Assembly (NCBI RefSeq): GCF_000521505.1
Contig: NZ_CP003915.1
Location: 992,001 to 1,056,000 of the forward strand
DNA length: 64,000 nucleotides
Source: Advenella mimigardefordensis DPN7
GTDB lineage: Bacteria; Pseudomonadota; Gammaproteobacteria; Burkholderiales; Burkholderiaceae_B
Direction of reading: 5' to 3'
Below the pieces are notes generated by a model. The model was not told the origin of the DNA. It saw only the letters and a list, made by a program, of their open reading frames with translations, and searched no databases. The position numbers and the translations under genes were made by a program. Each line of letters starts with the position of its first letter. Positions within the stretch are counted from its first letter, which is position 1. Shown piece after piece: positions 10,744 through 23,559 of this stretch.

Positions 10744-11637
10744 ATGGATACGCTACTCAGTATCAAAGTATTCTGTGAAGTGGTGCGTGCCGGCAGCTTT
10801 AATGCCGCAGCCCGCCATTTGGGGATATCCAATCCCATGGCAAGCAAGCACGTAGTGCATCTGGAGCAGCATGTGGGGGCGCGCCTGTTGCATCGCACCA
10901 GTCGCAAGCTGAGCCTGACTGAAGCCGGTCGGCTGTACTATGACAAATGTATTGATGCTCTGGATGTGCTGGATCAGGCCGAAGCCGTGCTGGGCGATCG
11001 CCACGGCGAGCCCAGTGGAGTGTTGCGGGTAACGGCACCGGTGTGGTTTGCCAGTAACCGTATCGCCCAGCTGCTGGTGCAATATCAGAACCGGTACCCC
11101 AGGGTGGTGCTTGATCTTTACCTGACAAACAGCAAGATTGAGCTGGCCGAGGCGGGGATGGATCTGGCAATACGGGTAACACATGATCCCGAACCGCAAC
11201 TGATCGTGCGCAAGGTCGGGCAGGTGCCGCTGGTGCTGGTGTCCAGTCCGGACTATATCGGCCGCATGGGCCAGCCACAGTCGGTCCAGGACTTGGAGCG
11301 TTTCGGCGCGGTCATGCCCAATTATCGTGATCGCAATGATTATCTGCTGCAGGGGCCAGCAGGCACGCTGAAATTTCAGCTGCAGAGCCTGATGAAGGTG
11401 AGTGACACGACATTAAGCCGTAAATTGGTGCTGGCCGGCATGGGCGTTGCCATGCTGCCAGCGTGGCTGGTGGAAGACGATCTGCGCCAAGGACGCTTGT
11501 TGCGACTGCTGCCCGACCATGAGAGCCCGCCGCTGGATATTTTTGCAAGCTACATGAGTCGCCAGTACCAAACCGGCAAAGTGCGCAGCTTTATTGATTT
11601 TTTCTCTGAAGCCATGGCGGGATCGACTGTCCAGTAG
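10744..11637 (+). CDS. LysR-family transcriptional regulator
   Basis: 297 residues. N-terminal winged helix-turn-helix (about residues 1-60: FCEVVRAGSFNAAARHLG, then SKHVVHLEQHVGARLLHRTSR) and a substrate-binding domain after it. Divergent from doxX and the dioxygenase gene, so these two are the likely targets. Its coinducer is unknown; regulators in this setting often respond to redox-active or aromatic compounds. Spacing and two dyads in the 281-bp divergent region fit the usual LysR control scheme. Confidence 0.9.
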   Translation: MDTLLSIKVFCEVVRAGSFNAAARHLGISNPMASKHVVHLEQHVGARLLHRTSRKLSLTEAGRLYYDKCIDALDVLDQAEAVLGDRHGEPSGVLRVTAPVWFASNRIAQLLVQYQNRYPRVVLDLYLTNSKIELAEAGMDLAIRVTHDPEPQLIVRKVGQVPLVLVSSPDYIGRMGQPQSVQDLERFGAVMPNYRDRNDYLLQGPAGTLKFQLQSLMKVSDTTLSRKLVLAGMGVAMLPAWLVEDDLRQGRLLRLLPDHESPPLDIFASYMSRQYQTGKVRSFIDFFSEAMAGSTVQ

Positions 11638-11660
11638 CGGCCGATAAAGGTGCGTATTGT

Positions 11661-11689
11661 AAAAAAGAGGGTGAGTAATCAATTCACCC
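11661..11689 (-). terminator. Leftward intrinsic terminator, possible end of a small RNA
   Basis: Read on the minus strand: GGGTGA, 9-nt loop, TCACCC, then TC and TTTTTT (stem halves at 11684-11689 and 11669-11674). There is no leftward protein gene to its right that needs it, so it either shields lysR from antisense reading or ends a short transcript that starts near the Fur box about 60-80 nt upstream. Confidence 0.6.
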
Positions 11690-11740
11690 CCGTTCACCCG
11701 CTTCAACTGTGGCGACATCCTGTTCGCGCATCGCATACAA
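11669..11740 (-). ncRNA. Candidate Fur-controlled small RNA (speculative)
   Basis: A leftward transcript beginning just after the Fur-like box at 11741-11763 and stopping at the terminator above would be roughly 70-80 nt, the size range of RyhB/PrrF-type iron-responsive small RNAs. No convincing -35/-10 pair was found on this strand, so the call rests only on the pairing of box and terminator and on the lack of any leftward gene. Confidence 0.25.
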
Positions 11741-11763
11741 AATAATGAATAAGAATCATTATC
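11741..11763. promoter_or_regulatory. Fur box
   Basis: AATAATGAATAAGAATCATT followed by ATC: an AT-rich dyad built on AATGA...TCATT that matches the Fur consensus core on both arms. It lies about 245 bp before the ABC transporter start and could serve that operon, a leftward small RNA, or both. Confidence 0.65.
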
Positions 11764-11858
11764 TATTGGGAACAATCCAGCTACCCGAAATAGACCCCGA
11801 TTACCCGGATCGGTATTGAAGTTTGAAACAGCGATATTTCTTTTTGCCTGAAAAATGG

Positions 11859-11896
11859 TTCGCATGCGGGGGATGGCTTTACCGAATCGGGTAGAG
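11859..11896 (+). promoter_or_regulatory. Third, weaker copy of the receptor leader motif
   Basis: TTCGCATGCGGGGGATGGC agrees at 15 of 19 positions with the leader of the first TonB receptor (17109-17127), and GGGTAG follows near the place of GGGGTGG. It precedes the ABC transporter genes by about 110 bp. Proposed as a binding site of the AraC regulator of this locus; inference from shared position and sequence. Confidence 0.4.
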
Positions 11897-12007
11897 AAAA
11901 TCGCGGGGCTTTTTTTATCCTTCTTCCGTAGCGAGACAGATGCAAGGCGGATACGCCACGCAGTCTCAGGGGTTTCTATTTGTCATTTTTTTCGGAGGAA
12001 CAGCGGC

Positions 12008-13789
12008 ATGTCCAAGACTAGCAACAGCGCATCCTGGTCTGTTCTGAATACGCTGCTGCGTGGCCATCGCATACCACTGGGCATGGCGATCATGCTCGCG
12101 GCGGTCGCTGCTGCGCTGGAGCTGGTTCCTTTCCTGATTCTTTGCTATTCAGTAGCGGCCTTGCCCGGGCTGCCCGATGCCTACGTTTTCTTCCAATTGG
12201 CAGGCTGGCTGGCGCTGGCACTGGCGGGAAAATACATCGTCTATTCACTGGCCTATTTTCTCAGCCACCAGACAGCCTATCGCGTGCTGATGGACACACG
12301 CCAGATTCTGGTCCGGCGCCTGGCCAGGGCGCCACTGCCCTGGCTGCAGCAGCACAATTCTGGCGTCCTGAATCAGCTTGTCATGCAGGATGTGGAGCGC
12401 ATAGAGCAATTCATTGCGCATCATCTCGTGGAGATGATGGCGGCATTTGCGGCCTCGGTCCTCGTCATTTCAGTATTGTGGTGGGTCGACTGGCGCCTTG
12501 CCCTGGCAGCTCTGGCAGCCCCTTTGCTGGCCGCCGTGATCCAGGCCATCGCCATGCGGAACGTGGGCCAATATATGACCGAATACCAGCAGGCTATCGG
12601 GGAACTGAACGGAGCGTCAGTTGAATATCTGCGCAGCATGCCTGTCATGAAAACATTCAATCAGGGCGCGCATTCCTTTGCTCGCATGCGCAACGGGCTG
12701 TCGCGGTATCATGATCTGGTTCAACGTATTACCCGCGGCACCGTTCCAGGCTGGTCTCTGTTCGTCGTGATGCTCAATGCCAATATTGTCGTTTTGCCTA
12801 TCGGACTTTGGCTTATGCACGAACAACAGATTGATCTGACGGGCATGCTGATTGCTATTGTGCTTGGCAATGGCATGGTCCGGCCACTGATGAAATTGAT
12901 GCGGTTCCAGACGCAGATCAGAGAGATTCTCGGTGGCGTGCAGCGTATGCAACCGGTTCTGTCTATGCAAGAATGCCAGTCGGAAACTCGACAAACCTTA
13001 ACGTCGTCTGGTGTGCAATTGTCGGGGATTAACGTGACTTACGGTAGCCGGCCGGTGCTGAGCGACGTGTCGTTCCCGATTCCTGCGGGTCGGGTGACTG
13101 CGCTGGTGGGGCCATCGGGCGCCGGCAAAAGCACCATTGCCAGTCTGTTAGGCGGGTTGATCGAACCGGATCAGGGGCACATACTGGTTGGCGACTGTCG
13201 GTTGGCAAACATCGGGGATGCGCAGCGCTGCGCCACGATTGCCGTTGTCGCACAGGACGCCTTTCTGTTTCGGGGAACGCTGCTCTCGAATTTAAAGCTG
13301 GGCCAGCCCGAAGCCAGTGACAACCAGGTTCGTCAGGCCTTGCGTGTCGCTCAGGCCGAAGCGTTTGTCAACGCCTTACCTGAAGGGTGGCATACGCATG
13401 TCGGCGAACGGGGGCTGACACTGTCTGGTGGCGAACGCCAGCGTCTTGCCGTGGCGCGGGCATTGCTGGCAAATACACCGATTCTGGTGCTGGACGAAAG
13501 TACGGCATTTGCCGATAGCAGAACCGAACAGCATTTCTACGAAGCGTTGCACAGGACCTATCCCGATCTGACCGTGCTGACGATTGCGCATCGTCTTTAT
13601 TCCGTGAAAGATGCGGCAAATATTGTCGTTTTGGATCACGGCAGCGTCGTCGGTTCTGGCAGTCACGCCAGTTTGCTGCAGACCTGTACCTTGTACCGAC
13701 AAATGTGGCAGGCGCAGGCATCGCAGCAATCAAGGGACGACAGCCAGACAAGGTTTGTCGTTCCACCAGGAGAAAAAGAGCATGCCTGA
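12008..13789 (+). CDS. ABC transporter, fused membrane and ATPase domains (YbtP/IrtA-like), first half
   Basis: 593 residues. Six-helix type IV exporter-fold membrane domain followed by an ATPase domain with Walker A GPSGAGKST, signature LSGGERQRLAVARA, Walker B with LVLDESTAF and the H-loop AHRLYS. The STAFADS text after Walker B is typical of the YbtP/YbtQ and IrtAB group, exporter-fold proteins that import or process ferric siderophores at the inner membrane. Start chosen at the ATG with GGAGGA upstream. Overlaps the second half by 8 nt; the two should form a heterodimer. Confidence 0.85.
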   Translation: MSKTSNSASWSVLNTLLRGHRIPLGMAIMLAAVAAALELVPFLILCYSVAALPGLPDAYVFFQLAGWLALALAGKYIVYSLAYFLSHQTAYRVLMDTRQILVRRLARAPLPWLQQHNSGVLNQLVMQDVERIEQFIAHHLVEMMAAFAASVLVISVLWWVDWRLALAALAAPLLAAVIQAIAMRNVGQYMTEYQQAIGELNGASVEYLRSMPVMKTFNQGAHSFARMRNGLSRYHDLVQRITRGTVPGWSLFVVMLNANIVVLPIGLWLMHEQQIDLTGMLIAIVLGNGMVRPLMKLMRFQTQIREILGGVQRMQPVLSMQECQSETRQTLTSSGVQLSGINVTYGSRPVLSDVSFPIPAGRVTALVGPSGAGKSTIASLLGGLIEPDQGHILVGDCRLANIGDAQRCATIAVVAQDAFLFRGTLLSNLKLGQPEASDNQVRQALRVAQAEAFVNALPEGWHTHVGERGLTLSGGERQRLAVARALLANTPILVLDESTAFADSRTEQHFYEALHRTYPDLTVLTIAHRLYSVKDAANIVVLDHGSVVGSGSHASLLQTCTLYRQMWQAQASQQSRDDSQTRFVVPPGEKEHA

Positions 13790-15548
13790 ATTTGTGCGCG
13801 CCTGCCTGCGGGTGATCCGGAAAAGCCGCCGGTCTCCTGCGAAAATCTATGTCGGACTGCTGCTGCGCGTCGCGGAACGCGCCTTTTCTATCGCGCCGTA
13901 TTTTCTCGCCTGGTACTGGCTGCTGGACATGCCGCCTTTTGCCGCTGCGACATCAGATCATTTTTCGTGGGCTGTACCTGCGGTCATTCTCGTCGTTCTT
14001 TTGCTTGGACAAATGGCATTTTCATACTTCAGCCAAATGAACAGTTTTCTGGGCAGCTATGACCTGACCTTATCCTATCGCGAACGTCTGATTGATCACC
14101 TGCGACAATTGCCCCTGGGTATTTTTGCTCGCCAGCGTGTCGGGCAATTATCGTCGGTCATGACCGATGATGTTAAACGCCTTGAAGACGTTTTCACCCA
14201 CCTGACTGCCGAATTGTTGGCTGCTGTGTCGGTTCCCGTTCTGTTTGCGATATGCCTGATCTGGGTGGATTGGCGGCTGGCGCTGGCATTGCTGATCACG
14301 TGGCCCTTGGCGCTATTTGCATTGAACGCTGCCAACCGGATCTTTCTGACACTGGGTCGGGGCAAGCAGTTGGCGGTGCAGGAGACCAGTGGCCTGATCG
14401 TTGAATTTATATCCGGCCTTCGGACGTTGCGATTGTTTGGTCGCGCCCACGTCTGGATAGGCCGGCTGGATCAGCGATTTGCGCAGATCCGGCAAGTCAG
14501 CATGGGTGCCGAAGCCTGGGGTGGCGGATCGGTGCAGGCCTATCGGGCCGTTCTGGAACTGGGATTGCTGTTATTGTTGCTTGTGGCCGGGTGGCTCGCC
14601 GGCGACGAGGATTTGACACCGGCCACGTGGCTGCTGTTTGTCCTTGTATCGTACAAAGTATTGGACCCGTTGCTTGATGCGGCCGCCTATCTGGTGGAGT
14701 TGCGTGCCATGCTGCAGGGTGAGGCGCGTCTGCAGAGATTGCTGGACACGCCGGTTCTCAGGGAAGGAGCACGTACCGAGCCGCCGCAGCATTTCAGTGT
14801 GGCGTACAGACAGGTCAGTTTTGCGTATGACAGCAAACTGATTTTACAGGATATTGACTTCGAGGTACCGCAGGGTACGGTCACGGCTATTGTCGGTCCG
14901 TCCGGAGCCGGTAAAAGCAGCTTGCTGCATTTGCTGGCCCGCTTCGATGACCCGCAATCGGGCACCATTTACCTGGGCGGCACAGACCTGAATGCCTGGC
15001 GCAGCGATAGCCTCTATCGTTATTTTGGCTTCGTGTTCCAGGATGTGCAACTATTTGAGGGCAGCATACTTGATAACGTTCGTATCGGACGGGACGGCGC
15101 GAGTGATCGCGAGGTGATTGATGCATGCAGCAGGGCGGGTTGCGACTCGTTCGTGCAGAACCTCCCGGAGGGCTACGCCACGCGCATCGGCGAAAATGGC
15201 CAGCAATTGTCAGGTGGTGAACGCCAGCGCCTGTCGATCGCACGCGCGATACTCAGGGATGCGCCGGTGTTATTGCTCGATGAGGCGACAGCGTCGGTGG
15301 ATGCCCAGTCTCAGCATGACATTGAGCAGGCGTTGGCGTGCCTGAGCGAGGGCAAGACCGTGCTCATGGTTGCGCACCGCCTGAATGCCGTCCGTCATGC
15401 TGATCAGATTCTTGTGCTTGACCAGGGGCGCGTGCATGAGAAAGGCACCCACCAGGAACTGCTGAAGCACGACGGGCTGTATGCAGAGCTATGGCGCAGA
15501 CAGGAGGTGGAAATTCATGTTGAGGCTTGCGGTGACGCAACGAATTGA
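13782..15548 (+). CDS. ABC transporter, fused membrane and ATPase domains (YbtQ/IrtB-like), second half
   Basis: 588 residues with the same fold: membrane domain, then Walker A GPSGAGKSS, signature LSGGERQRLSIARAI, Walker B LLLDEATASVD and H-loop AHRLNA. It starts inside the 3' end of the first ABC gene (8-nt overlap, SD CAGGAG upstream), which fits an obligate heterodimer. In Yersinia the YbtP-YbtQ pair takes iron into the cytoplasm from the imported siderophore complex. Substrate here is inferred from the AraC, receptor and MFS neighbours, not proven. Confidence 0.85.
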   Translation: MPEFVRACLRVIRKSRRSPAKIYVGLLLRVAERAFSIAPYFLAWYWLLDMPPFAAATSDHFSWAVPAVILVVLLLGQMAFSYFSQMNSFLGSYDLTLSYRERLIDHLRQLPLGIFARQRVGQLSSVMTDDVKRLEDVFTHLTAELLAAVSVPVLFAICLIWVDWRLALALLITWPLALFALNAANRIFLTLGRGKQLAVQETSGLIVEFISGLRTLRLFGRAHVWIGRLDQRFAQIRQVSMGAEAWGGGSVQAYRAVLELGLLLLLLVAGWLAGDEDLTPATWLLFVLVSYKVLDPLLDAAAYLVELRAMLQGEARLQRLLDTPVLREGARTEPPQHFSVAYRQVSFAYDSKLILQDIDFEVPQGTVTAIVGPSGAGKSSLLHLLARFDDPQSGTIYLGGTDLNAWRSDSLYRYFGFVFQDVQLFEGSILDNVRIGRDGASDREVIDACSRAGCDSFVQNLPEGYATRIGENGQQLSGGERQRLSIARAILRDAPVLLLDEATASVDAQSQHDIEQALACLSEGKTVLMVAHRLNAVRHADQILVLDQGRVHEKGTHQELLKHDGLYAELWRRQEVEIHVEACGDATN

Positions 15549-15951
15549 TTCCGATAATTTGTTGCGCGATGTCGACCAGGCTTTTCGGTTGGTCAACACT
15601 GCGACCGAAACATTGAATGAGGGCGAGCTGCGATTGTTTTGCGCGCCGCTTTCCCTTGCTTGCGCTGTTCCGCCTGCCTGGCTGGACGCGCACGAGCATA
15701 GCCGGTGTCGGGCCTATCGGTTCGCTGATGATCGCCGACGCCATCTGCTCGCACATGGTATGAAGCGATGGGCAATCGGCAATGTGTTGAATGTTTCGCC
15801 ACGGGACGTGCAATTTACTGTCGATCGACTGGGCAAGCCGACCTTGCCTGGCGACGCAGTGCATTTCAATCTGAGCCATAGCGCAGGCTGGGTCGCATTA
15901 GCGTTATATCGTCAGGCGGCGGCTTGTCTTATCGTTCGACCAGGTGTGTGA
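15517..15951 (+). pseudogene. Truncated phosphopantetheinyl transferase (Sfp/EntD type)
   Basis: 144 residues from an ATG with AGGAGG 9 nt upstream. The part present matches the N-terminal half of Sfp-type transferases: RCRAYRFADDRRRHLLAHGM, GKPTL and FNLSHSAGWVALAL. The reading frame then stops, and only 14 bp remain before the convergent AraC gene, so the GxDxE metal site and the WxxKEA segment are missing and no frame restores them. Without the catalytic site it cannot prime carrier proteins. Such enzymes serve siderophore synthetases; the stump suggests a lost biosynthetic arm. Confidence 0.7.
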
Positions 15952-15965
15952 ATGTGCAGTGTGAC

Positions 15966-16853
15966 TCAACTCAGGGCAAAACGTCTGGCTTCGCTTGGCA
16001 GGACGCCAAACTGCTTGCGAAACGCGGTGCTGAAATGGCTGAAGTTGCTGTAACCGAGCTGTATCGCAGTTTCCGTCACGCTATGTTGCAGTAGCAATCT
16101 GCGCGCGTGTTCCATGCGTTCACGCTGGAACAGGGCATATACACTGACGCCGAACAGGTTTTTGAAGCCTCTCTTGAGCTTGAGCTGGTTTAACCCGGTT
16201 TCCCGGGCCAGTTGCTCGATTGTGGGCGGATTGCTCAGATCGGCCAACAGGCGTTCGCGTGCTGCGAGCAACTGCCTGCGTTCACGGGGAGCAACGCCCG
16301 AGCTGACGGCGTCGGGTTGGAGCGATTTGAGCTGCCACGCCAGAAATTCTAGTGCTGCGGCATGCACCAGCAACGGCGACGTATTATCTTCTGCAAGGAG
16401 CCGTCCCAGCCTGTCTGTGGCATCGCGGATTCGCAGATTGCTGGCATTGCGCATCAGGCAGAAGTCGTTGCCGCAACCTTGGTAAAGCGCTTCGGATTCT
16501 TCTCCGGCCAACTCACACAGCAATTGCGGGGTAATGCGCAGTTCGATATTGCACCAGCCGGCGCTGCAGCCAATCTGGTACCGTTTTCCTGGCGTGAACG
16601 TTGCCAGGATGTCATCGCTGTCAAGTTCAAAACTGCGGCCGTCACACGTGATGCTGGTTGTTCCCCGCAACAGACAATTGAAATGAACCCGGGCATCCGC
16701 ATCGTCTTCCGTTACCGCGTCCATATGCTGACCTGTCTCGAACCGCACGAGCGAGACAGCCAGCCCGGGCTGCAAATCCAGTGTTTTGACAGCGGCACCC
16801 GATGCCGCCACTTTGTGATTATCGAAAAACTCTGTTGAGTTCACAACTTGCAT
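15966..16853 (-). CDS. AraC-family regulator (YbtA/PchR-like)
   Basis: 295 residues. A ligand-sensing N-terminal domain, then a C-terminal double helix-turn-helix: TIEQLARETGLNQLKLKRGFK and the second helix pair SVTETAIQLGYSNFSHFSTAFRK with the AraC end ...FGVLPSEARRF. Regulators of this group (YbtA, PchR) bind the ferri-siderophore and switch on receptor and transporter genes. GAGG precedes the ATG. It is divergent from the first receptor gene, and its own promoter contains a Fur box (17001-17029). Likely iron-starvation activator of the whole locus. Confidence 0.9.
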   Translation of the reverse strand: MQVVNSTEFFDNHKVAASGAAVKTLDLQPGLAVSLVRFETGQHMDAVTEDDADARVHFNCLLRGTTSITCDGRSFELDSDDILATFTPGKRYQIGCSAGWCNIELRITPQLLCELAGEESEALYQGCGNDFCLMRNASNLRIRDATDRLGRLLAEDNTSPLLVHAAALEFLAWQLKSLQPDAVSSGVAPRERRQLLAARERLLADLSNPPTIEQLARETGLNQLKLKRGFKNLFGVSVYALFQRERMEHARRLLLQHSVTETAIQLGYSNFSHFSTAFRKQFGVLPSEARRFALS

Positions 16854-17000
16854 ATTCTTACCTCAAATCTGCATGAACGCTGCGTCCGCATAAGGGGCGT
16901 CTGCCTATAGCGAGGGTCCCAGCCTTGAAGGATGCGGTCTGTGTGCCACTTCCATTCTTTCCCAAATGACCTGGAGGCGAATGCGAGTAGGGCGCATAAA

Positions 17001-17029
17001 AGTATAATGATAATCATTTCTATTAGCAA
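17001..17029 (-). promoter_or_regulatory. Promoter of the AraC gene overlapped by a Fur box
   Basis: On the minus strand TTGCTA (17029-17024) and TATACT (17006-17001) are 17 bp apart, a good sigma-70 promoter pointing at the AraC gene. The Fur-box core ATAATGATAATCATT (17004-17018) fills the spacer and -10, with the central 15 bp equal to the Fur consensus, so iron-loaded Fur should block this promoter. Confidence 0.75.
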
Positions 17030-17103
17030 TAAGAATGACCATTTCTTCGGAAGGTCACCTGCCATTCGCATCGGCAGAGAGGAGAGGCAAGCGTGTTGTT
17101 ACA

Positions 17104-17144
17104 AATAATTCGCTTGCGGGGAGTGTCGATCCTTTTGGGGTGGC
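17104..17144 (+). promoter_or_regulatory. Leader motif of the first TonB receptor (copy 1)
   Basis: 41 bp that match the leader of the second receptor (20551-20591) at 35 positions. Conserved core TTGNGGGG...TGTCGATC, then a second GGG-rich half ending GTGGC about 20 bp later. It lies 56 bp before the chosen receptor start. Proposed as the AraC-regulator operator. Confidence 0.55.
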
Positions 17145-17199
17145 ATGCAAGAAAGAGGGCATTTACGCTTTGGCAGATATCCTCATGGGCCTGTCTTCA

Positions 17200-19308
17200 A
17201 TGAAAAATTCGTCTTTTCCAAACCGACGCTCCGCCAATCGTCAACTGATATGTGCGTTGGTAGCCGGCGGCTTGTATACGTTGCCAGTCTGGCAAACTCA
17301 GGCAGTCGCACAGCAAGCCACCATCGGTACGCAGCAAACACCAGTATTGCCATCGATTTTTGCTACGCCCGTTGCAGACGATGGGCAAAATCTGTTCACA
17401 ACGCCGGCCAGTATGACAGTCGTCAACGGAAAAACGCTGGAAGATCAGCATCTGGACACGCTGGGGCAGATTGCGCATCGCCAGCCCAATATGCACCTGA
17501 CCAGTTATACCCATGCTAACCCCATTATCACGATCCGGGGATTGGGGATTCATGCGGATGAAGCAGATAGCACGAATATTCCGGTCGTGTTGGACGGTGT
17601 GCCGGTTTCGGGATTATCGATCGGCCAGCTGTTTGACCTTGACCAGGTGCAGGTTCTGCGTGGTCCACAAATACTGGAGGGCCCCAATGGGCTTGGCGGG
17701 TTGATCCGCCTGCGTTCCCGCGACCCTGGCGAGATTGCGGGAGGCAATGTTTCCCTGGAGTACGGCAGTCATAACCGGCGTCGCGCCACCCTCAGTGGCG
17801 ACATTCCACTGTCAGAACGCACGGGCTTGCGTATTGCGGTGGGAGCGGAACAGTCCGATGGCGAAACAAAGAATGCGGCCCTGGATCGGGACGACACGGC
17901 GGGCTGGAAAAGCACTCAAGCCAAGCTGAAACTGTTGCACACAGACGATGCGGGCGGCCAATGGCGACTGGGACTCTATCACATGAATTCGCGTGGCGGC
18001 AATGACTACTTTGCGCCGGCAAGCCTGAGCCGCAAGCACGAATCGAATGCGACCGATAAGGGAACGAACAATACAAAATACACACTGGTATCGGGCAGCT
18101 ACCAGCGTCAGTTCGCCAGCGGCACGCGATTGTCCGTGACGTTGGGAGCAAGCCGCTCAGAGTGGAATTATTGGTTGCCGGAATCCATGTTCAGTGCGCG
18201 CAACGGTTTTGATATGGTGACCCGTGAGCTTAGCGCGGATGCACGCCTGGCCGGCAAAAAAGATGCGATCGACTGGACTGTCGGTCTGTTTGCACAGCAG
18301 ACCCGGCGCGATGCTCCCTATCTTTATGACATGGCACCTTATTACACCAGCGATACCGAGGCGACCCGCAAGGGCAATACGACCGCCTTGTTCGGACAGG
18401 TTGGGTGGACTTTCGCGCCTGGGTGGCGGCTCGCGGCGGGTTTGCGGATACAGCATGACCGCCAGCGCATGGATTGGCGCAGCGACCAGAGCGGCTATAT
18501 GGATTCTGACGGTGACGGGATGCCCGATATGCCATTCAGTACCACGGAAACCGTTCAGAACGCCAGCGTTAATAAAACGGTGTGGTTACCCAGTCTCACG
18601 CTGGAGTATCGGCCGAATGAGCGTCATTTTGCCTGGGTCAGGCTGACCCGTGGATACGAAGCGCCCGGCTTCAATACTTACGCCACCATGCGCGAACAGG
18701 CCGCCCAGGCCTATCTTCCGACGCTGGCAAACTATATCGAATTGGGTTACCGGCTGCGTGGCCGGGATGACACGTGGGAAGTCGGAGCCACCGCCTTCAG
18801 TACCATCATGCATGATCAACAGGTCGTGGGCTCGGTCAATGGCCAGAATATGACGAGCAATGCAGCGCGGGCGCACAGCCGGGGCGTCGAGCTCTCAGGA
18901 CGGTGGCGGCCTCTGCAGGAACTTGAACTGAATGCCTTTGCGGGCTTTGTCGACGCCAAATGGGACGATTTCATGCGTAATGGTGTTGATTATGGCGGCC
19001 ACAGCTTCAGTATGACGCCGCGCCAGAGCTATGGTGCAGGCCTGTCATGGCAGCCACATCCGCAATGGGATCTTGGCGTCAATGTCGTGCGACATGGCAG
19101 GACGACACTTGCCCCCAATAGCGAAATCGAAAATAAACCCTACACACTGGTAGATGCACATGTGACATATACCAATGGCCGATTCAGTGTCGGAGTGTAC
19201 GGGCAGAATCTTGGCAATGTCCGTTACTTTACCCGGGCATTGTCGCAGGATCTGCTGGTGGCGGGCGCGTCGCGCACAGTGGGTGTGCGCATGAGCATGA
19301 ATTTCTGA
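17200..19308 (+). CDS. TonB-dependent outer-membrane siderophore receptor, copy 1
   Basis: 702 residues from the chosen ATG: basic N-terminus, hydrophobic signal and a cut near VAQQA; then a plug domain ([52 protein letters not shown]) and a beta barrel ending in the aromatic C-terminus MSMNF. Related in style to FyuA/FptA receptors. Start choice: no strong SD, but this ATG gives the same 702-residue length as the second copy; longer in-frame starts exist at 17185 and 17035. The stop overlaps the MFS start (TGATG). Confidence 0.88.
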   Translation: MKNSSFPNRRSANRQLICALVAGGLYTLPVWQTQAVAQQATIGTQQTPVLPSIFATPVADDGQNLFTTPASMTVVNGKTLEDQHLDTLGQIAHRQPNMHLTSYTHANPIITIRGLGIHADEADSTNIPVVLDGVPVSGLSIGQLFDLDQVQVLRGPQILEGPNGLGGLIRLRSRDPGEIAGGNVSLEYGSHNRRRATLSGDIPLSERTGLRIAVGAEQSDGETKNAALDRDDTAGWKSTQAKLKLLHTDDAGGQWRLGLYHMNSRGGNDYFAPASLSRKHESNATDKGTNNTKYTLVSGSYQRQFASGTRLSVTLGASRSEWNYWLPESMFSARNGFDMVTRELSADARLAGKKDAIDWTVGLFAQQTRRDAPYLYDMAPYYTSDTEATRKGNTTALFGQVGWTFAPGWRLAAGLRIQHDRQRMDWRSDQSGYMDSDGDGMPDMPFSTTETVQNASVNKTVWLPSLTLEYRPNERHFAWVRLTRGYEAPGFNTYATMREQAAQAYLPTLANYIELGYRLRGRDDTWEVGATAFSTIMHDQQVVGSVNGQNMTSNAARAHSRGVELSGRWRPLQELELNAFAGFVDAKWDDFMRNGVDYGGHSFSMTPRQSYGAGLSWQPHPQWDLGVNVVRHGRTTLAPNSEIENKPYTLVDAHVTYTNGRFSVGVYGQNLGNVRYFTRALSQDLLVAGASRTVGVRMSMNF

Positions 19309-20555
19309 TGGAAACCATGACGCATCAAACGGCTTCGACCCGCCCGCTGGCAAGTCCGTCGCCTTCCGGAGAATACCTGTCCATTGCCCTGATGTATTTT
19401 GCGCAGGGCGTGCCCATTGGCCTGGCATTCAATGCCCTGGGTGCCATGATTCGGCATGGCGGACATAGCGTGGCGGCAGTCGGGCTGACCGGGTTGGCCT
19501 TCCTGCCCTGGGCCCTGAAATTCCTGTGGGCCGGCCCGATCGAAAACGCCTGCGCCCGATGGGGGCTGCCCCGGTTCTTGTGGATGACGCAAGCGCTGAT
19601 TGTGTTGACTTGTCTGGTCATGATCCCGTTCCCACCCTCGGCATCGCTGTATACCATCATTGTATTGATCGTATTGCTGAATCTGTTGTGTGCGACACAG
19701 GATATCGTCACCAATTCCTATGCCGTCCTGCGCTTCCAGGGGCGTCGTGCAGGCACTGCCAACGCCATACAAATCGCGGGATTTATCGGGGGTATGCTGA
19801 TCGGAGGGGGTGGGCTGCTTCAAGTCTATTCATCGGTGGGATGGCCGGTGACGATGCTGATCCTGGCGATACTCATGGCAGTCGTTTACATCCCGCTTTG
19901 GCTTATCCCTGGTTGGCGCCACACGGCGGCCAATACGAAGGCCACGACATCACGGGTCAGATTGCGCGATCTGGCAAAGCACCGCGATTTGGGCTGGGCG
20001 TTGCTGCTCGCGTTGAGCTTCAAATTTGCAGGCACGGCAGTCTCTACGCTGGCCCAACCCTGGCTGCTTGACAAAGGATTTGATCTTGAACAGATCGGCC
20101 GATTGCAAATGAGTAATCTTGTATTTGTGGCGGTAGGAGGCGCATGCATCGGCATTCCTCTGCTACGCTATGCCGGAAACCGCAGGGCAGTGCTCGCTGG
20201 CATGATATTGTCCGGGGTGTTGATGGGGACCGCCTGGGTACTGCAGATTACCGGCCCGTTTTCATTGATGACGCTATATGCTGCATTCGCGTTGCAATCG
20301 CTGTTTGAGGGGGCCATGTTTGTGACAGTATGGGCGTTGTTTATGAACTGGTCATCAAAAGACCGTCCTGGCACCGATTTTACCGTGATGCAGTGCTGCG
20401 AGGGATTCGGTAACGCGATAGCGACCGGCATGATCGGTGGATTGGGCCAGGCTTATGGGTATGGCGATGCCTTTGCCATTGCCTGGGCGAGTGCCGCAGG
20501 CGTTTTGCTGATAACGGTGGTTTGCCTGCCGAGATTGCGACTGGCAGAGAAATAG
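19308..20555 (+). CDS. MFS permease of the RhtX/FptX/YbtX siderophore-transport type
   Basis: 415 residues, 12 helices. It shares the AmpG/RhtX-type features MYFAQGVPIGLAFNALGAM in helix 1, LPWALKFLWAGPIENACARWG and the helix-5 segment ATQDIVTNSY. Members beside AraC and TonB receptor genes (RhtX, FptX, YbtX) carry siderophores across the inner membrane. Placed between the two receptors: it starts on the last base of the first receptor stop, so both are coupled. An alternative start is the ATG 9 nt downstream. Confidence 0.87.
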   Translation: METMTHQTASTRPLASPSPSGEYLSIALMYFAQGVPIGLAFNALGAMIRHGGHSVAAVGLTGLAFLPWALKFLWAGPIENACARWGLPRFLWMTQALIVLTCLVMIPFPPSASLYTIIVLIVLLNLLCATQDIVTNSYAVLRFQGRRAGTANAIQIAGFIGGMLIGGGGLLQVYSSVGWPVTMLILAILMAVVYIPLWLIPGWRHTAANTKATTSRVRLRDLAKHRDLGWALLLALSFKFAGTAVSTLAQPWLLDKGFDLEQIGRLQMSNLVFVAVGGACIGIPLLRYAGNRRAVLAGMILSGVLMGTAWVLQITGPFSLMTLYAAFALQSLFEGAMFVTVWALFMNWSSKDRPGTDFTVMQCCEGFGNAIATGMIGGLGQAYGYGDAFAIAWASAAGVLLITVVCLPRLRLAEK

Positions 20556-20591
20556 TTCCCTTGTGGGGAATGTCGATCTTTTTTGGGTGGC
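20551..20591 (+). promoter_or_regulatory. Leader motif of the second TonB receptor (copy 2)
   Basis: Same 41-bp motif as 17104-17144, overlapping the MFS stop codon. A TATAAA at 20603-20608 lies 12 bp after it, so the motif would cover the -35 region, the usual place for an AraC-type activator. The second receptor may therefore have its own activated promoter. Confidence 0.55.
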
Positions 20592-20615
20592 TTCCCACCC
20601 GGTATAAAGTTACTT

Positions 20616-20646
20616 TTAGAAATAATATATTTCATATTATTTCTAA
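20616..20646. repeat. Perfect 13-bp AT-rich inverted repeat before the second receptor
   Basis: TTAGAAATAATAT and ATATTATTTCTAA are exact complements around the loop ATTTC; the right arm ends 7 nt before the ATG at 20654. In the mRNA this hairpin would hide the ribosome entry site, which has no good SD; in DNA it is a symmetric AT-rich site. Its role is open. Confidence 0.6.
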
Positions 20647-20653
20647 GTTGCTT

Positions 20654-22762
20654 ATGAAGACACCGCTTTTCCCTTTTGTATATCCAGCATATCGTCAATT
20701 AACCATCACCCTCGTTTTCACCGGCCTGTGTTCGCTGCCGGTCGGACAACCACTCGCGTTTGCTCAGCAGCGGGCAACTGAAAGACAAGCGGCGCATTTA
20801 CTGCCTCCCGTTTTAGCCGTTCCTGTCGCAGAGGCGAATGAAAACAGATTCACGATGCCGTCCAGTGTGTCGATCATCAACCGCAAAACCCTGGAAACAC
20901 AGCATTTGGACACCCTTGGTGAGATCGCGCATCGCCAGCCCAATATGCATCTGACCAGTTATACCCATGCCAATCCGGTGATTACGATCCGGGGGCTTGG
21001 CATCCATGTAGATGAGTCTGATAGTACTAATATCCCGGTCCTGATGGATGGCGTGTCGGTTCCGTCAAACTTCGTGGGCCAGCTGTTTGACCTGGACCAG
21101 GTGCAGATCCTGCGCGGCCCGCAGTTGCTGGAAGGTCCCAATGGATTGGGCGGTCTGGTCAAGATGCGTTCCCGGGATCCCGGGTTGACTGCCGCGGGCG
21201 ATGTTTCTCTTGAATATGGCAGCCATAAGCGGCAGCGCGCGACGGTCAGTGGCGATGTGCCGCTGGCGGGGCGCACAGGCTTGCGAATTGCGATAGGTGG
21301 CGAACAATCTGATGGCAATACCTATAACCGGACTCTGGACCGTAAGGATACGGCCGGGTGGCACAGCACCCTGGCCAAACTGAAGTTGTTGCATACAGAT
21401 GATGGCGGCGGGCAATGGCGCCTGGGCCTCTATCACATGAATTTGCGTGGCGGCAACGATTACTTCGCGCCGGAAGATCTCAGCCGCCGGCATGAATCTA
21501 CGGCAACCGAAAAAGGCGCAAACAATACCAAGTACACATTGCTTTCGGGCAGTTACCAGCGACAGTTCGCGGGTGATACCCGCCTTGCCGTGACCTTCGG
21601 GGCAAGCCGTTCGGAATGGAATTATTGGTTGCCCCGTTCCCTGTTCAAGGCGCAGGCCGGGTTCGATATGGTAACTCGCGAGCTTAGTGCAGACACACGG
21701 TTGAGCGGGCATAAAGAGGCCATCGACTGGATGGTCGGCGTGTTTGCACAGCAGGCGCGTCGCGATGCGCCTTACCAATTCGACATGGCGCCCTATTTCA
21801 CCAGCAATACGCTGGCAAAGCGTAAGGGACATACGCTGGCATTGTACGGGCAGGCGGGATGGGCTTTTGCGCGGGGCTGGCGGCTCGCGCCAGGTTTGCG
21901 AATCCAGCATGATCGCCAGCGCCTGAATTGGCGCAGCGAGCAGCGTGGTTACATGGATTCGGACGGCGATGGAATCCCTGATAGGTCATTTAGCATGACG
22001 GACTCGTTGCGCAATGCAAGCGTGACGAAAACGGTACTGCTGCCCACCCTTACACTCGAATATGGTCCGGATGAGCGTCATTTTGGCTGGGTAAAATTGT
22101 CGCGCGGGTATGAAGCGCCGGGCTACAATCTGTACGCCACCAAGCGTGAACGGGCGCAATACGCCTATCTTCCGACGCTGGCAAATTACATCGAATTGGG
22201 CTATCGGATACGAGGGGAGGGCGACAGATGGGAGTTGGGTGCGACGGCGTTCAGCACGATCCTGCATGACCATCAAGTCGTGGGCTCAGTCAACGGTCTG
22301 ACTGTGACCAACAATGCTGCGCGGGCTCATAGCCGGGGGTTCGAGCTGACCGGCATGTGGCGACCGGTGCCGGAACTTGAACTGAATGCGTTCGCAGGCG
22401 TTGTCGATGCAAAATGGGACGATTTTGTCCTCAATGGGGTGGACTGGGCTGGCCAGCGTTTCAGTACATCACCGCGCCAAAGCTATGGTCTGGGCTTGTC
22501 ATGGCAGCCGCACGCCCAATGGAGCCTGGGTGCCAGTGTAGTTCGTCATGGCAGGTCGACGCTGGCGACCAACAGTAATTTCGTGAATAAGCCTTATACA
22601 TTGGTCGATGCACATGTCACTTATACGGGCGGCAGATTCAGTATCGGCGTGTATGGACAGAACCTGGGTAACGCCCACTATTACACGCGTGCAGTATCAC
22701 AGAATGCACTGGCGGCAGGCACTTCGCGAAACGTGGGCATACGCGTGAGTATGAACTTCTGA
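20654..22762 (+). CDS. TonB-dependent outer-membrane siderophore receptor, copy 2
   Basis: 702 residues, the same length as the first receptor and very similar throughout (by eye around three quarters identical; for example [47 protein letters not shown]). Signal peptide MKTPLFPF... cleaved near AFAQQ, plug, then barrel ending in MSMNF. Differences gather in the signal peptide, the short region just after it and scattered barrel loops. Its leader repeats that of copy 1, so the duplication included the regulatory region. Could bind a related but distinct ligand. Confidence 0.88.
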
Positions 22763-22887
22763 CGGGGAAGCGGGCGACGGGAAGGGAACGACTCAATGAA
22801 CCATTAAGTCAAGATATTTACCGATCAGGGCAGGCTTGCTTTATCATTGCGGAGTCTACAACCTATCGATATTTCAGCAGGAACATC

Positions 22888-23559
22888 ATGTCTTCTCAGA
22901 ACCGTCTTGATTTTGTCCGCTTTGCCTCGCAGGAAGGCGTCTTGCGCTTTGGTGAGTTCAAAGTAAAGTCCGGCCGTCTCAGTCCCTATTTTTTCAACGC
23001 CGGTCTGTTCAATACCGGCAGGTCGGTTGGTGAGCTGGGCCGGTTCTATGCGCAGGCGCTGCGCGATTCCGGCGTGGGATTCGATATGTTGTTTGGCCCT
23101 GCCTATAAGGGCATTCCGCTGGCAGCAGCGACGGCGATCGCGCTGGCGGGTCTCCCATCGCAAGCGGCGGAAGTGCCGTTTGCCTTCAATCGCAAGGAAG
23201 CCAAGGACCATGGTGAGGGTGGCACGCTGGTAGGCGCGCCGTTGCAGGGGCGCGTCGTGATTATTGATGATGTGATTACTGCCGGTACCTCGGTGCGCGA
23301 ATCCGTGGAGATTATTCGTGCTGCCGGTGCTACGCCTGCCGCTGTGCTGATTGCGCTGGACCGCATGGAGCGTGCGGGTGCAGATGATGCGCTGTCTGCG
23401 CATTCTGCCGTACAGGATGTGCAACAGAAGTATGGCATGCCGGTCGTCAGCATCGCATCGCTGGACGATATCATGCAATTGCTTGATGAAGATGCGACTT
23501 TTGCACAGCATCAGGAGGCCGTATCGGCCTACCGTAATAAATACGGGATTCTGCGCTGA
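22888..23559 (+). CDS. pyrE: Orotate phosphoribosyltransferase
   Basis: Makes orotidine monophosphate from orotate and PRPP in pyrimidine synthesis. 223 residues with the PRPP-binding motif [14 protein letters not shown], the N-terminal [19 protein letters not shown] and the [10 protein letters not shown] loop. Length is normal. A poly-purine stretch AGCAGGAA precedes the ATG. Convergent with gatB. Marks the return to conserved chromosomal gene order after the accessory region. Confidence 0.96.

Follow-up and report, generated by a model that had tools for sequence, protein, structure and literature searches.

The locus described here lies in a stretch of 64,000 nucleotides of the genome of Advenella mimigardefordensis DPN7 (contig NZ_CP003915.1, positions 992,001 to 1,056,000; this whole stretch is called the window below), where alignment to sister genomes delimits an insert of 11,207 bp (~11620-22826) between lysR and pyrE (Table 1). 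The insert carries the genes for two ATP-binding cassette (ABC) half-transporters, a truncated phosphopantetheinyl transferase (PPTase) and an AraC-family regulator, followed by a second unit—reaching 22762—in which the genes for two TonB-dependent receptors (TBDR1 and TBDR2) flank that of a major facilitator superfamily (MFS) permease; all these genes had been named in an initial annotation made from the letters alone and all are present. Judged from sequence comparison, the insert is quite probably an uptake-only cassette that is related to the gene cluster of a salicylate-capped metallophore made by a non-ribosomal peptide synthetase (NRPS) with three cyclization modules, that entered the genome by horizontal transfer at a point between lysR and pyrE, and that exploits a ligand produced by others.

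Concerning the families of the proteins, the parts of the cassette resemble in kind those of yersiniabactin uptake (YbtPQ, YbtX, FyuA and YbtA) and of pyochelin uptake (FptA, FptX and PchR), although the sequences are distant. The top non-eukaryotic solved match of ABC1 is the YbtPQ chain 6p6i_A (310 bits), eukaryotic ABCB proteins scoring equally high, and ABC1 would correspond to YbtP, since 6p6i_A is the partner of the chain named YbtQ. For ABC2, MsbA and two YbtPQ chains are about equally close in the PDB, so that the comparison does not discriminate between them; the ABC motifs are intact in both proteins. Both receptors have FyuA as their nearest solved structure, FptA not having appeared among their solved-structure matches, and each of them has its own counterpart in Advenella kashmirensis, the receptor duplication thus predating the split of the two copies. 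The permease had been annotated as being of the RhtX/FptX/YbtX type, which agrees with its best NCBIfam match (TIGR02718, RhtX/FptX) as far as the family is concerned; its score of 184.8 bits, however, stays below the curated cut-off of 356.15, and the protein is on this comparison a relative rather than a certified member of that family.

Fur-box-like sequences are found upstream of both ABC1 and receptor 1. They were scored against a consensus of 19 positions over the whole window, in which scores of at least 14 occur at 6 places, two of these being overlapping registers near 17003. Since such scores recur in the window, the site at 11745 leans on its conservation in A. kashmirensis more than on its score.

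Table 1 Features of the insert and of its flanks (positions in the window)
Feature	Position	Strand	Remark
lysR	10744..11637	+	left flank; codons after 11619 contributed by the insert
Left-edge sequence, 99 bp	11620..11718		without convincing match in the loci compared
Region homologous to the bidirectional promoter of A. kashmirensis (ABC1 / salicylate ligase/synthase gene)	11719..12007		alignment
Fur-box-like sequence	11745..11763	+	14/19 to the consensus; kept in A. kashmirensis
ABC half-transporter 1 (ABC1)	12008..13789	+	profile and structure-database matches
ABC half-transporter 2 (ABC2)	13782..15548	+	overlaps ABC1 head to tail
Truncated PPTase, N-terminal domain only	15517..15951	+	overlaps the end of ABC2
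AraC-family regulator	15966..16853	-	HTH_18, 78.9 bits
Fur-box-like sequence	17003..17021	+	15/19, single top score of the 64-kb window
TonB receptor 1 (TBDR1)	17035..19308, likely start 17200	+	open reading frame and receptor matches
MFS permease, RhtX/FptX-like	19308..20555	+	TIGR02718, below the curated cut-off
TonB receptor 2 (TBDR2)	20654..22762 (start in the list of open reading frames: TTG 20522)	+	~72% identical paralogue of receptor 1
Right-edge sequence, 64 bp	22763..22826		without convincing match in the loci compared
pyrE	22888..23559	+	right flank

Of the PPTase domains, the N-terminal PF22624 alone is matched by the truncated protein (42 bits), and the description of this gene as a stump without its active site is thus borne out, the half that corresponds to PF01648, the catalytic superfamily, being gone. 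Its counterpart in A. kashmirensis is a full frame of 297 amino acids with both domains. The alignment of the two genes falls into two overlapping blocks, with ~323 bp of the A. kashmirensis gene missing from the window; imperfect copies of a ~13-bp repeat border this deletion, the length of which is not a multiple of three and which has removed the catalytic domain. The ratio of nonsynonymous to synonymous differences (pN/pS) between the stump and its counterpart is 0.60 (bootstrap 0.39-0.86), as against 0.06-0.19 for the uptake genes. A search for a close outgroup of the PPTase found none. The broken gene is a trace of former synthesis, left over either in this lineage or in a donor.

Genes for synthesis were looked for in the whole genome, which comprises 4,764,126 bases in 2 contigs and is rated 100% complete. 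A profile search with the Condensation family PF00668 gave 0 matches, the same search finding matches in 4 of 14 control genomes. The salicylate synthase model TIGR03494 likewise gave nothing over its cut-off, only two weaker matches; these are very likely the usual chorismate-binding enzymes, since each of the 10 genomes of the genus compared has at least two matches to the model, the cut-off being exceeded in one of the 10 only, A. kashmirensis. The proposal that uptake had been kept without a synthetase, made for the window, thereby extends to the genome. Two PF01648 matches over the cut-off are present outside the locus, in frames of 161 and 274 amino acids that would be, by their length, AcpS-like and Sfp-like; a working PPTase may therefore exist in this strain in spite of the broken copy, although no synthetase was found for it. 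In all, no synthesis of the cognate ligand was found in the genome by the Condensation and salicylate synthase families, the thiazolinyl reductase family not having been searched there.

A siderophore locus of another chemical class, independent of NRPS (NIS), is nevertheless present in the same genome (G000:C1:2938738-2949986; L110 8738-19986), and no rival cluster for the ligand class of the cassette, the finding that the initial annotation had named as its refutation, came to light. The NIS locus consists of genes for two IucA/IucC proteins—one of them fused to a GNAT domain—a Lys/Orn monooxygenase, a FauA-like receptor and MFS proteins, and the six genes compared have A. kashmirensis homologues that are 77-88% identical. 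With this unrelated, hydroxamate-type locus, the strain probably makes a different siderophore and is probably not siderophore-less. It might be argued that the cassette imports or exports the strain's own compound, e.g. this hydroxamate-type siderophore, in keeping with the two synthetases of the NIS locus and with an ABC2 that resembles MsbA no less than the YbtPQ chains; this appears highly improbable, since the NIS locus has a FauA-like receptor and MFS genes of its own, and it is with salicylate NRPS clusters that relatives of the cassette are associated.

The most instructive of these relatives is the cluster of A. kashmirensis W13003 (NZ_KI650980.1), in which the uptake genes, their order and the intergenic promoter region are the same as in the window, the proteins being 84-95% identical (the receptors 84-88%); it differs in its genomic place and in having an intact PPTase and synthetase genes. 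The synthetase cluster starts divergently across the ABC1 promoter. Its first gene encodes an AMP-ligase/salicylate-synthase fusion (TIGR03494, 472 bits against a cut-off of 325) and is followed by an NRPS gene, cut short by the end of the contig, in which two stretches of condensation type and two of adenylation type are recognized; the top solved match of this protein is dihydroaeruginoic acid synthetase (PchE). A second contig holds a fragment that comprises the final part of an adenylation domain, then an NRPS with a methyltransferase and a thioesterase, the top solved match of which is the bacillamide synthetase BmdB, together with a protein resembling saccharopine dehydrogenase, a thiazolinyl imide reductase (scoring over the cut-off of TIGR01761) and a thioesterase. 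The motif DxxxxDxxS, which marks cyclization domains, occurs at least once in each of the three condensation-type domains of the two NRPS proteins; HHxxxD was not found in these proteins, nor was any polyketide synthase (PKS) domain in the genes scanned.

Although the A. kashmirensis cluster is split over two contigs, its homologues in Frateuria sp. Soil773 (NZ_LMSL01000041.1) are contiguous and collinear, which supports the gene order given above. The uptake proteins of Frateuria are ~54-68% identical, and its locus differs from that of the window in its complete synthetase, in a single receptor match and in the lack of a PPTase match between ABC2 and the AraC gene. In Pseudomonas matsuisoli, three cyclization-type domains are found in one frame adjoining the uptake genes (L129 419-19182). 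Salicylate NRPS clusters with three cyclization-type domains thus stand beside uptake genes in both Frateuria (L127/L128) and P. matsuisoli (L129). By inference from these genes, the product would be a salicylate cap carrying three cysteine-derived rings, to which coelibactin is closer than either pyochelin, with its two rings, or yersiniabactin, the assembly of which involves a PKS; the three-cyclization-module synthetase of the relatives also sets the cassette apart from the yersiniabactin and pyochelin systems.

The ABC pair and the MFS permease occur together in A. kashmirensis, Frateuria and P. matsuisoli, each time beside one three-module synthetase. It had been suggested that two inner-membrane routes in the window possibly serve two ligands, or iron and zinc; since relatives with a single adjacent synthetase keep both routes, a reading by two ligands is neither supported nor needed. 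A ligand other than the salicyl/tri-cysteine compound—the receptors having drifted towards another xenosiderophore or towards zinc or copper complexes—is distinctly unlikely: the receptors are but weakly similar to any solved receptor, and yersiniabactin binds copper too, according to an excerpt of PMC8725597, yet their identity to the producer's receptors is high and they show no rate excess (see below).

As to the origin of the cassette, the lysR-pyrE site is empty in five of the five other Advenella genomes that have this lysR, the remaining 4 genomes of the genus giving no lysR match and staying outside the count. Between the homology blocks of the lysR and pyrE sides, the empty sites hold 4 bp in three of the genomes and 11 bp in the remaining ones; alignment puts the right edge of the insert at 22826 with three sister genomes and at 22833 with the other two. 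A. kashmirensis being among the five, its cluster sits elsewhere in its genome. The window and this cluster are homologous from 11719, a point 9 bp short of the likely ATG of the A. kashmirensis salicylate gene (in the list of open reading frames, this gene is given a GTG start another 27 bp upstream), as far as the receptor 2 stop codon. It may be added that pyrE is in two frames in one Advenella genome (G178:C1:987197-987858).

The proportion of synonymous differences (pS) between the window and A. kashmirensis points in the same direction. In the six transport and regulator genes—the PPTase stump (pS 0.31) being excluded—it amounts to 0.35-0.46, with a mean of 0.41, as against a mean of 0.54 (range 0.38-0.62) in 16 flanking genes (insert lower, p = 0.0003) and 0.54-0.68 in 6 NIS-locus genes, all six insert values being lower (p = 0.002). 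With 33 controls, i.e. the 16 flanking genes, the six NIS genes and 11 open reading frames of the trpE region, p = 0.0014, two of the last 11 (pS 0.05 and 0.11, below their own pN) being likely wrong-frame shadow frames that were kept in the count. The split between the two copies therefore appears to be younger than that between the species, which speaks for a horizontal gain on one side or on both.

The initial annotation had left the choice between a former producer and an uptake-only transfer; because the insert occupies a site empty in all five genomes and its pS lies below that of the backbone, transfer fits better and loss in place fits less. It is also unlikely that the ancestor was a producer, whose cluster was relocated within its own genome and then lost its synthetase by deletion, the locus having descended without transfer. 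The deletion of a whole operon would indeed leave a homology break such as that 9 bp before the likely first synthetase start, and the PPTase, broken as it is, bears witness to former synthesis in the lineage or the donor; however, A. kashmirensis has its cluster elsewhere and nothing at lysR-pyrE, the site is likewise unoccupied in the four other genomes that possess this lysR, none of which gave an MFS match in the sample search, and a pS below the backbone speaks against strict vertical descent. As regards horizontal acquisition itself, the synthetase may have stayed with the donor from the outset or have been lost once the cassette had arrived.

The six transport and regulatory genes are of full length, and their pN/pS of 0.06-0.19 against A. 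kashmirensis may be compared with the ~0.5 expected had they escaped selection since the separation. A relative-rate test with Frateuria as outgroup, in which both receptors were set against the single Frateuria receptor, counted 78 changes in the window only and 81 in A. kashmirensis only, over 3161 sites of six proteins (p = 0.87). On these comparisons, the uptake genes are maintained under constraint and evolve no faster than those of the producer. That the locus should be a decaying relic with no present function is most improbable: the PPTase is already broken, but the six genes are intact in length, in their ABC motifs and in their pN/pS, they show no rate excess over the producer, and Fur-box-like sites are present.

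Several observations weigh, nonetheless, against an uptake cassette gained by transfer from such a cluster. The top solved match of both receptors, the pesticin receptor 4epa (FyuA), is weak, at 71 and 54 bits. The PF22624 score of the stump (42 bits) is not below that of the A. kashmirensis copy (36 bits), so that decay of the stump is not visible by this measure. One flanking gene, gatC, falls with its pS of 0.38 inside the range of the insert. The GC content of the insert is like that of the host, there is no integrase or transposase among its annotated genes, and neither a target-site duplication nor convincing end repeats were seen.

The 99-bp left edge gave nothing but itself beyond 13-base words in DNA comparison with the loci compared; in translated searches of 12 sources, no match fell below E 0.4. 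A hairpin of the form GGGTGA/TCACCC followed by T's was seen by eye on the minus strand at 11669-11689, at this left edge of the insert; it may be a stop for transcription coming from the old synthetase promoter. It is absent from the list of the terminator scan, and folding of the region shows nothing unusual (z -0.47).

Outside these loci, an MFS match at 1e-20 was obtained in 42 of 250 genomes sampled from the family, with an identity of at least 57% in four of them, namely that of the strain itself, A. kashmirensis (90%) and two of a genus (g4) that is presumably Achromobacter (57 and 59%); among 369 genomes sampled from the class, there was no MFS homologue at 1e-75 except the strain's own. 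The two g4 genomes, G247 and G224, as well as A. insuavis (L062, in G251), possess a related receptor-MFS-ABC-ABC unit with a divergent AraC gene. These orphan units of Achromobacter type (L039 5849-13734, L040 6555-14463 and L062 1-7509) have an MFS protein that is ~57% identical. Condensation matches number 0 in both G247 and G251 and 13 in G224, the latter ~140-175 kb from its unit; with no such match in G247 and G251, uptake that lacks synthesis may have originated on more than one occasion.

In the genomes of two Azoarcus loci, at least 5 Condensation matches each were found, and within the Azoarcus stretches compared, the NRPS genes of A. kashmirensis have no homologue. The NRPS genes of G071 and G165, tried as the same system, were rejected at ~21-31% identity to the A. 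kashmirensis NRPS proteins. A tblastn search of plasmids with ABC1 yielded distant homologues (<60% identity), some of them adjoining NRPS genes. Plasmid pUKW01 of Undibacterium sp. KW1 (L037 1-18239) carries NRPS and ketosynthase genes with a receptor, an MFS permease, an ABC pair—the second protein annotated as two pieces—and an AraC-type gene. Plasmid pPAT9B01 of Pantoea sp. At-9b (L035 10148-17217) has a receptor, an AraC gene, a small protein and an ABC pair; no NRPS is annotated in the 29 kb that contain them, and they are possibly another uptake-only unit.

It may be proposed, as a tentative generalization that we hold for somewhat less than probable, that the uptake halves of salicylate-thiazoline systems travel as self-contained piracy cassettes—comprising the promoter, the regulator, the receptors and both inner-membrane routes—cut at the shared bidirectional promoter, and that this happened more than once, in this Advenella and in the Achromobacter-type genomes, which have another gene order and in two of the three examined lack a Condensation match.

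Import of a foreign ligand, as deduced from the gene set, would proceed as follows. Low iron would lift Fur repression at both promoters, and the imported ligand together with the AraC protein would raise transcription, in the manner of PchR and YbtA. The metal complex would reach the periplasm through the two TonB receptors and then cross the inner membrane by way of the ABC heterodimer, the MFS permease or both. Since the cell apparently cannot make this ligand, it would exploit that of its neighbours—e.g. A. kashmirensis-like producers—and use it alongside its own hydroxamate-type siderophore.

It should be pointed out that Pseudomonas cheaters that lose synthesis yet keep the transporter are well described, as an excerpt of PMC10393863 states, and that, according to an excerpt of PMC5812596, Vibrio harveyi and V. 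rotiferianus possess the receptor FrpA but lack the synthesis of piscibactin. The Vibrio case, as presented in that excerpt, is alike in that uptake was acquired without synthesis; it differs from the window, where the unit is larger (a regulator and two receptors together with the two routes across the inner membrane), the insertion site is visible and a broken PPTase remains as a trace. Concerning A. mimigardefordensis itself, no title on its siderophore genes was among the matches listed in a literature search, and a term search of PMC5373536 gave 0 uses of either siderophore or TonB.

The phenomenon itself is known, and the cassette of the window adds a new and well-resolved example to it, a natural case that offers for comparison the cluster of the producer, the unoccupied site, the pirate copy and the broken leftover of synthesis. 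A specific partner is predicted for it, namely producers of a three-module salicylate metallophore of the A. kashmirensis type, and the spread of whole uptake systems without their costly synthetases becomes testable outside the Pseudomonas and Vibrio models.

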